NCBI GenBank assembly: GCA_011389745.1
Contig: JAABTQ010000020.1
Coordinates: forward strand, 1-54,791
Source: Desulfobacteraceae bacterium
GTDB taxonomy: Bacteria; Desulfobacterota; Desulfobacteria; Desulfobacterales; SKZT01
Direction: 5' to 3'
Length of the DNA: 54,791 nt
Shown one piece after another: positions 22,288 to 23,163 of the stretch (position 1 is its first letter; every line of letters starts with the position of its first letter). Made by a program: the position numbers and the translations under genes. The notes beneath the pieces were generated by a model. That model was not told the DNA's origin, did no database searches, and saw only the letters and a program-made list of their open reading frames with translations.

Positions 22288-22575
22288 ATGTCATTAAAAT
22301 TTATATGGAATCCAAACAAAGCTAAAAAGAATATTGAAAAACATGGAGTTCCATTTGATGAAGCTGCCACAGTGTTTTCCGATCCATTGTCAATGACGTA
22401 TGATGATCCTGACCATTCTTTAGGTGAGAATAGATATATAATTATCGGCTTGTCTCATCTTGGTAATTTACTTTTTGTTTCCCATATGGAAAAAGATGAT
22501 ATTATAAGGATTATAAGTGCAAGGCAATTGACACGAAAAGAAAGGAAGCAATATGAGCAGCAAAAAAATATATGA
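22288..22575 (+). CDS. brnT: BrnT-family ribonuclease toxin
   Basis: 95 residues. BrnT toxins are RelE-fold ribonucleases that halt translation and are neutralised by a co-transcribed antitoxin. The family pattern is complete: FIWNPNKAKKNIEKHGVPFDEAATVFSDP near the start (shared in parts), a central NRYIIIGLS, and the C-terminal IIRIISARQLTRKERKQYE. The length is typical. It overlaps the next small gene by 23 bp, the arrangement of a toxin-first toxin-antitoxin operon. Confidence 0.9.
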   Translation: MSLKFIWNPNKAKKNIEKHGVPFDEAATVFSDPLSMTYDDPDHSLGENRYIIIGLSHLGNLLFVSHMEKDDIIRIISARQLTRKERKQYEQQKNI

Positions 22576-22798
22576 CGAAATGAATGATGAGCTTCGGCCC
22601 GAATATGATTTATCAAAATTAAAATGTGGCGTTAAAGGAAAATATACCTCTAAATATAAAGAAGGAACTAACTTGATTTTATTAGCACCTGATGTGGCGG
22701 AGGTTTTTAAGGATAATGAATCAGTAAACGAAGCATTGAGATTATTAATAAAAATCGCAGGTGAAAAATTTGCAAAGACCGCCCAGCAACCGCATTGA
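22553..22798 (+). CDS. Probable antitoxin of the BrnT toxin (not classical BrnA)
   Basis: 81 residues: an N-terminal RPEYDLSKLKCGVKGKY, then EGTNLILLAPDVAEVF, and a C-terminal SVNEALRLLIKIA helix. A polar N-terminus with a compact DNA-binding-like C-terminus is common for antitoxins, and the (R/L)-x-EYD-x-SKLK…GKY pattern occurs in small partners of RelE-type toxins. It lacks the usual BrnA DIDYSD-type motif. GGAAG precedes the ATG, which lies inside brnT. The antitoxin role is inferred from operon structure. Confidence 0.75.
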   Translation: MSSKKIYDEMNDELRPEYDLSKLKCGVKGKYTSKYKEGTNLILLAPDVAEVFKDNESVNEALRLLIKIAGEKFAKTAQQPH

Positions 22799-22862
22799 GA
22801 CTGACTTGAACCACTGCATTTCACTTAGCGGTTTTTCAAGCAGCTTAAACTGGAAAAAAGAA

Positions 22863-23087
22863 TTGAGTGTAACCTGTTTGTGTTAAAAGACTTGTGCTCA
22901 ATTGTAGGTGCGAATTCATTCGCACAATGTGAACCCCGTTGTCCATTATACAGTCTATGCGGTTCCCCCAGAAAAAATGTTGCTGGGGGCCTTTAAAGAA
23001 TTTTCTGTAAATCCGTTCCGGATTTTAAGTGCGAATGAATTCGCACCTACAGAAAAATCGGATTTCACACAAACAGGTTACACTCAA
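22863..23087. mobile_element. MITE-like element with terminal inverted repeats and 5-bp target duplication
   Basis: Perfect 20-bp terminal inverted repeats lie at 22863-22882 (TTGAGTGTAACCTGTTTGTG) and 23068-23087. The bases AAGAA flank both ends (22858-22862 and 23088-23092), as expected for a 5-bp target-site duplication. Inside is a second perfect 22-bp inverted repeat at 22904-22925 and 23029-23050, plus a C5AG/CTG5 hairpin near 22966-22990. The element is 225 bp with no coding capacity, so it would need a transposase in trans. It fills most of the 365-bp gap between the antitoxin gene and comF. Confidence 0.87.
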
Positions 23088-23163
23088 AAGAATTCGGCAT
23101 AATAAAATGAGCGAAACCCAAGTTATTGGATATTTTGTTGCTTTTTATTCTGGAACATCCGTA

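Follow-up and report, generated by a model that had tools for sequence, protein, structure and literature searches.

A contig of 54,791 nt (JAABTQ010000020.1, referred to here as the window) from the 3.6-Mb draft genome of a sediment-dwelling Desulfobacteraceae bacterium (GCA_011389745.1; G000) contains a short segment in which one pair of inverted repeats encloses another, raising the question of whether this is one mobile element or two, and what moves it. We consider it likely that there are two nested parasites, an outer non-autonomous element (MITE) that relies on a DDE transposase of Mutator type supplied in trans, probably of the IS256 family, and within it a REPIN of the type moved by RAYTs.

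Inverted-repeat detection identifies outer arms of 25 nt (22863–22887 and 23063–23087; 96% identity) and inner arms of 23 nt (22903–22925 and 23029–23051; 100%), and the nesting described in the original prediction is real, although the ends were placed out of phase. Alignment of the ends of all sibling copies sets the boundaries at GAGTG (22865) and CACTC (23085; Table 1), with terminal inverted repeats (TIRs) of 23 bp (GAGTGTAACCTGTTTGTGTKAAA) that are complementary at 22 of 23 positions, the single mismatch being TTAAA in the left end versus TGAAA. The same phasing rules out the 5-bp AAGAA duplication proposed to lie beside TTGAG ends; AAGAA is the middle of a perfect 9-bp duplication that flanks GAGTG...CACTC. 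Two matches to the end are present in the window where 0.01 are expected by chance, and two inner palindromes where 0.07 are expected. There is no plausible gene within the 221 bp. The element is thus a MITE, being short, without a transposase gene, bounded by TIRs and a 9-bp duplication of fixed length, and dispersed as copies at non-orthologous sites.

Table 1. Features of the nested element in the window.
Feature	Position	Strand	Comment
Complete non-autonomous element (MITE)	22865..23085	.	221 bp; no coding capacity
Left 9-bp target-site duplication AAAAGAATT	22856..22864	.	Same phase as the 9-bp duplications of sibling copies in G000 and G002
Right 9-bp target-site duplication AAAAGAATT	23086..23094	.	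Perfect match to left copy
Left terminal inverted repeat GAGTGTAACCTGTTTGTGTTAAA	22865..22887	+	End search and sibling alignment
Right terminal inverted repeat GAGTGTAACCTGTTTGTGTGAAA	23063..23085	-	End search and sibling alignment
Inner GTAG-type REP GTAGGTGCGAATTCATTCGCAC	22904..22925	+	Inverted-repeat and pattern search
Second inner REP, inverted	23029..23050	-	Inverted-repeat and pattern search
REPIN module (two inverted GTAG REPs and spacer)	22904..23050	.	147 bp; free copy in G002

The prediction is borne out that the element is non-autonomous, that its target was duplicated on insertion and that further copies are numerous in the genome. There are about 19 near-full-length and eight truncated copies in G000, where a search for the ends with up to two mismatches returns 43 matches (none with a reversed control pattern), and more than 30 near-full-length copies in the congener Desulfobacteraceae bacterium MAG CSSed162cmB_348 (G002; contigs SKZT01). 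Of the intact copies that could be tested, 11 of 15 in G000 and 10 of 27 in G002 have exact 9-bp duplications at their flanks; as a control, pairing the left flank of one copy with the right flank of another gave an exact match in 2 of 1722 cases. Insertions favour a target of roughly AAATNATTT. Neither of the two outcomes named beforehand as arguing against an insertion, a lack of other copies or relatives with the same sequence and no duplication, was encountered. Most G000 copies differ from the family consensus by 1–5% (with one outlier at 12%) and those in G002 by 5–13%. The window copy was thought to be recent and its duplication is indeed intact, but it lies 3.2% from the consensus, a greater distance than for most G000 copies. 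The G000 copies compared and the fetched G002 copies have no insertion locus in common, and the window locus in G002 is without the element, although the intergenic DNA there is too diverged to align and does not provide a base-perfect empty site.

In the genome contigs searched, the exact 23-bp end was found only in elements of this MITE kind and in no insertion sequence, all of them in the genus except for one contig of an archaeal bin. An order-wide end search of 389 genomes allowing three mismatches returned only the same genus and single weak matches without partners, and there was no match to the element in the viral contigs, phages and plasmids searched, nor in Rfam. The archaeal-bin contig (PWHV01000007, binned as Methanomassiliicoccaceae) carries a 381-bp copy (L129, 3652–4032) that contains an additional palindrome as an insert and is flanked by a perfect 9-bp duplication. 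The exact end is on this one contig only in the bin and the neighbouring genes resemble bacterial polysaccharide genes, from which mis-binning, while not proven, is more likely than a true archaeal copy. We note three other arrangements. A sister MITE subfamily in G002 (L168, 501–688, contig C292) has the same TIR and a different interior with hairpins; this interior has about 40 matches in G002, and G000 has end matches only. One G000 copy (L080, ~630–800, contig C19) itself contains an inserted repeat of the CCCCCTTTGAAAAAGGGGGATTTAGGGGG type, so that nesting there reaches a third level. In contig C5 of G000 a large imperfect inverted repeat (L084, 2930–3450; GGCCTAAAAGGCCGTTACATATCCCAGGGCGACGCCC and its partner) adjoins a solitary MITE end and looks like another repeat family.

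What moves the outer element is indicated by its ends and target duplication. Prokaryotic Mutator-type elements, including IS256, have ends of 18–39 bp that start with G and make duplications of 8–9 bp (PMC3942029), and the MITE has both the terminal G and a duplication of this length. Its end aligns with those of two IS256 elements from the same order (L183 in G025 and L184 in G023, the latter with its transposase gene at 1414–2655), sharing AGTGT...TTGTGTRAAA, with p values from <0.0002 to 0.016 (5000 shuffles each) for a comparison that was picked post hoc and is uncorrected for the search; the G023 protein is assigned to IS256 by NCBIfam (E 3.5e-100). Duplication length, terminal G and similarity to IS256 ends from the same order together make an IS256/Mutator-type transposase the most likely mobiliser. 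It was predicted to come from elsewhere, and a search of G000 gave no candidate with matching ends. No IS256 transposase (PF00872) is present in the G000 or G002 assemblies and no MULE domain (PF10551) in G000, G001 or G002, the three family genomes searched, and the mobiliser was not seen for this reason; the two assemblies of G000 and G002 are fragmented and may have lost repeat-borne genes, and the transposase is either lost, missing from the assemblies, or borrowed. The proposed search for full-size insertion sequences with the same ends (GAGTGTAACCTGTTTGTGT type) returned none in G000 or G002. Three single-ended copies (one in C5 and two in C12) were considered as full-size insertion sequences, and all are truncated or have unrelated interiors.

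The element is like other IS256-type MITEs (Mutator superfamily, p-MULT 1) in its lack of coding capacity, its 23-bp TIRs starting from G, its A+T-rich 9-bp duplication and its multiple copies, but differs in that no parent insertion sequence with identical ends was found; MITEs usually, though not in every case, have such an autonomous relative. The absence of an IS256 gene from either host genome would fit a different mobiliser, either a Mutator-type transposase outside IS256 (ISH6 or ISAzba1/ISMich2/ISKra4) or another DDE family making 9-bp duplications; an ISH6-type insertion sequence occurs in an uncultured Desulfobacterium, and duplications of 8–9 bp are general to Mutator-type prokaryotic elements (PMC3942029). 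We regard this as unlikely, although the best of the alternatives, given that the MITE ends, which were compared with those of IS256, show similarity to elements of that family within the order, and that no MULE-domain gene is present in the three family genomes searched.

The inner pair had been noted to resemble scattered repeats, and this proves correct: the two palindromes are GTAG-type REPs, and together with their spacer they constitute a REPIN as these have been defined (PMC3733652, PMC3116915). The REP pair is present in essentially every ~222-bp copy of the family, and the nesting is therefore ancestral to it. The suggestion that one element had inserted into or been captured by another is thus upheld in part, since the inner module occurs free in the sister genome, but the nesting arose once in the ancestor of the family; a private insertion in the window copy is ruled out by the REP pairs in nearly all the others. 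In G000, 42 of 47 perfect REP matches are within MITE copies (counted by hand), and no Y1 transposase (Y1_Tnp) gene or RAYT was detected; genomes with REPINs usually have a RAYT, but it may be lost. G002 has one Y1_Tnp gene (L179, 1273–1815, minus strand), a RAYT according to NCBIfam REP_Tyr_transpos (87.1 bits, with a cut-off of 80), although this gene is not flanked by the inner REP of the MITE. There are 196 REP matches in G002, many of them free, mostly as inverted pairs of ~105 bp with other spacers.

These free REPs bear directly on whether a second element was ever involved. That nearly every copy has the REP pair would also be expected if there were just one MITE, with subterminal palindromes that belong to its own structure and only look like REPs. 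The sister subfamily with the same TIR (L168, L223 and L225) has subterminal hairpins too, suggesting that inner palindromes are old in the lineage, and no version lacking the REPIN was found: a search for TIR pairs 20–50 bp apart gave none, and the state before capture is consequently unproven. However, the free REPs that are widespread in G002 share an identical GTAGGTGCGAATTCATTCGCAC core and have unrelated spacers, and the inner module alone occurs free, ending exactly at GTAG and CTAC. We consider a single MITE improbable, somewhat more so than a mobiliser outside IS256.

The free module is a single instance, the only one found, of 148 bp in G002 (contig C188, 3908–4055), with exact GTAG and CTAC ends, no TIR around it, and 96% identity to the interiors of subfamily-B MITEs. 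A tree of the inner modules puts it within a G002 subfamily that has support of 100/100, and support for its exact position among the members is weak (90/72). Most simply, this REPIN would have left a MITE in G002 through the action of the RAYT. The main alternative for this module is gene conversion between REPINs, into an older REPIN site, and it could also have arisen by loss of the outer ends.

The window element is intergenic, lying between a brnT operon and a convergently oriented comF-like gene. The operon encodes a BrnT-type ribonuclease toxin (22288–22575; PF04365, E 1.4e-27) and a small gene that overlaps it (22553–22798), probably the antitoxin, which has no Pfam match and directly adjoins the element; this toxin and small gene region is absent from the same locus in G002. 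The intergenic placement between convergent transcription units and the very strong folding of both strands (z of -10.8 and -12.7) could suggest that the repeats persist chiefly because they serve the host, as transcript-ending or mRNA-stabilising hairpins, rather than as selfish DNA. This is very unlikely: the congener lacks the element at this locus, the G000 copies compared all occupy sites other than those of the fetched G002 copies, and no terminator-like site was found where one was looked for at the window element.

Our preferred explanation, a REPIN carried within a MITE, thus combines elements each of which is of a known kind. The inner part is like described REPINs and GTAG-type REP dimers (PMC3116915, PMC3733652) in its two inverted palindromes with GTAG facing outwards, its short spacer, its many copies and the RAYT of the sister genome. 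It differs in that the dimer is inside a MITE with TIRs and a flanking duplication and, in G000, in that nearly all REPs are MITE cargo with no RAYT detected. There is a described parallel in the long palindromes of Anabaena variabilis, where GTAG-15 dimers are regularly inside a larger inverted repeat (PMC3733652). No target palindromes without REPs were found in that study, whereas in the present case a 9-bp target duplication flanks the outer repeat and the inner module has a free copy. What is new is that the nest bears a 9-bp signature of transposition, that genomes with and without a detected RAYT stand in contrast, and that a free inner module represents an apparent escape.

We propose that a DDE transposase of Mutator type, with IS256 as the most likely family, would act in trans on the gene-less element, cutting at GAGTG...CACTC and inserting it with a 9-bp stagger into A+T-rich intergenic DNA. 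The REPIN would be another element, likewise non-autonomous and ordinarily dependent on a RAYT tyrosine transposase for its movement, that entered an ancestor of the MITE before the copies diverged and has since been copied along with it. In G000, where no RAYT was detected, the REPIN would spread almost only as MITE cargo, and in G002, with its RAYT, it apparently also moved out alone. More tentatively, DDE (IS256-type) and tyrosine (RAYT) transposases may both act on one nested unit, such that the MITE would be a vehicle for REPINs in a lineage that has lost its RAYT, from which they could re-emerge when a RAYT is present; we view this as possible, if somewhat short of an even chance. For the persistence or spread of REPs where a RAYT is absent, carriage in a MITE moved by another enzyme offers a concrete route, one that the pair of genomes with and without a detected RAYT makes testable through more strains of the genus. 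It would illustrate how one genomic parasite can be carried by another.
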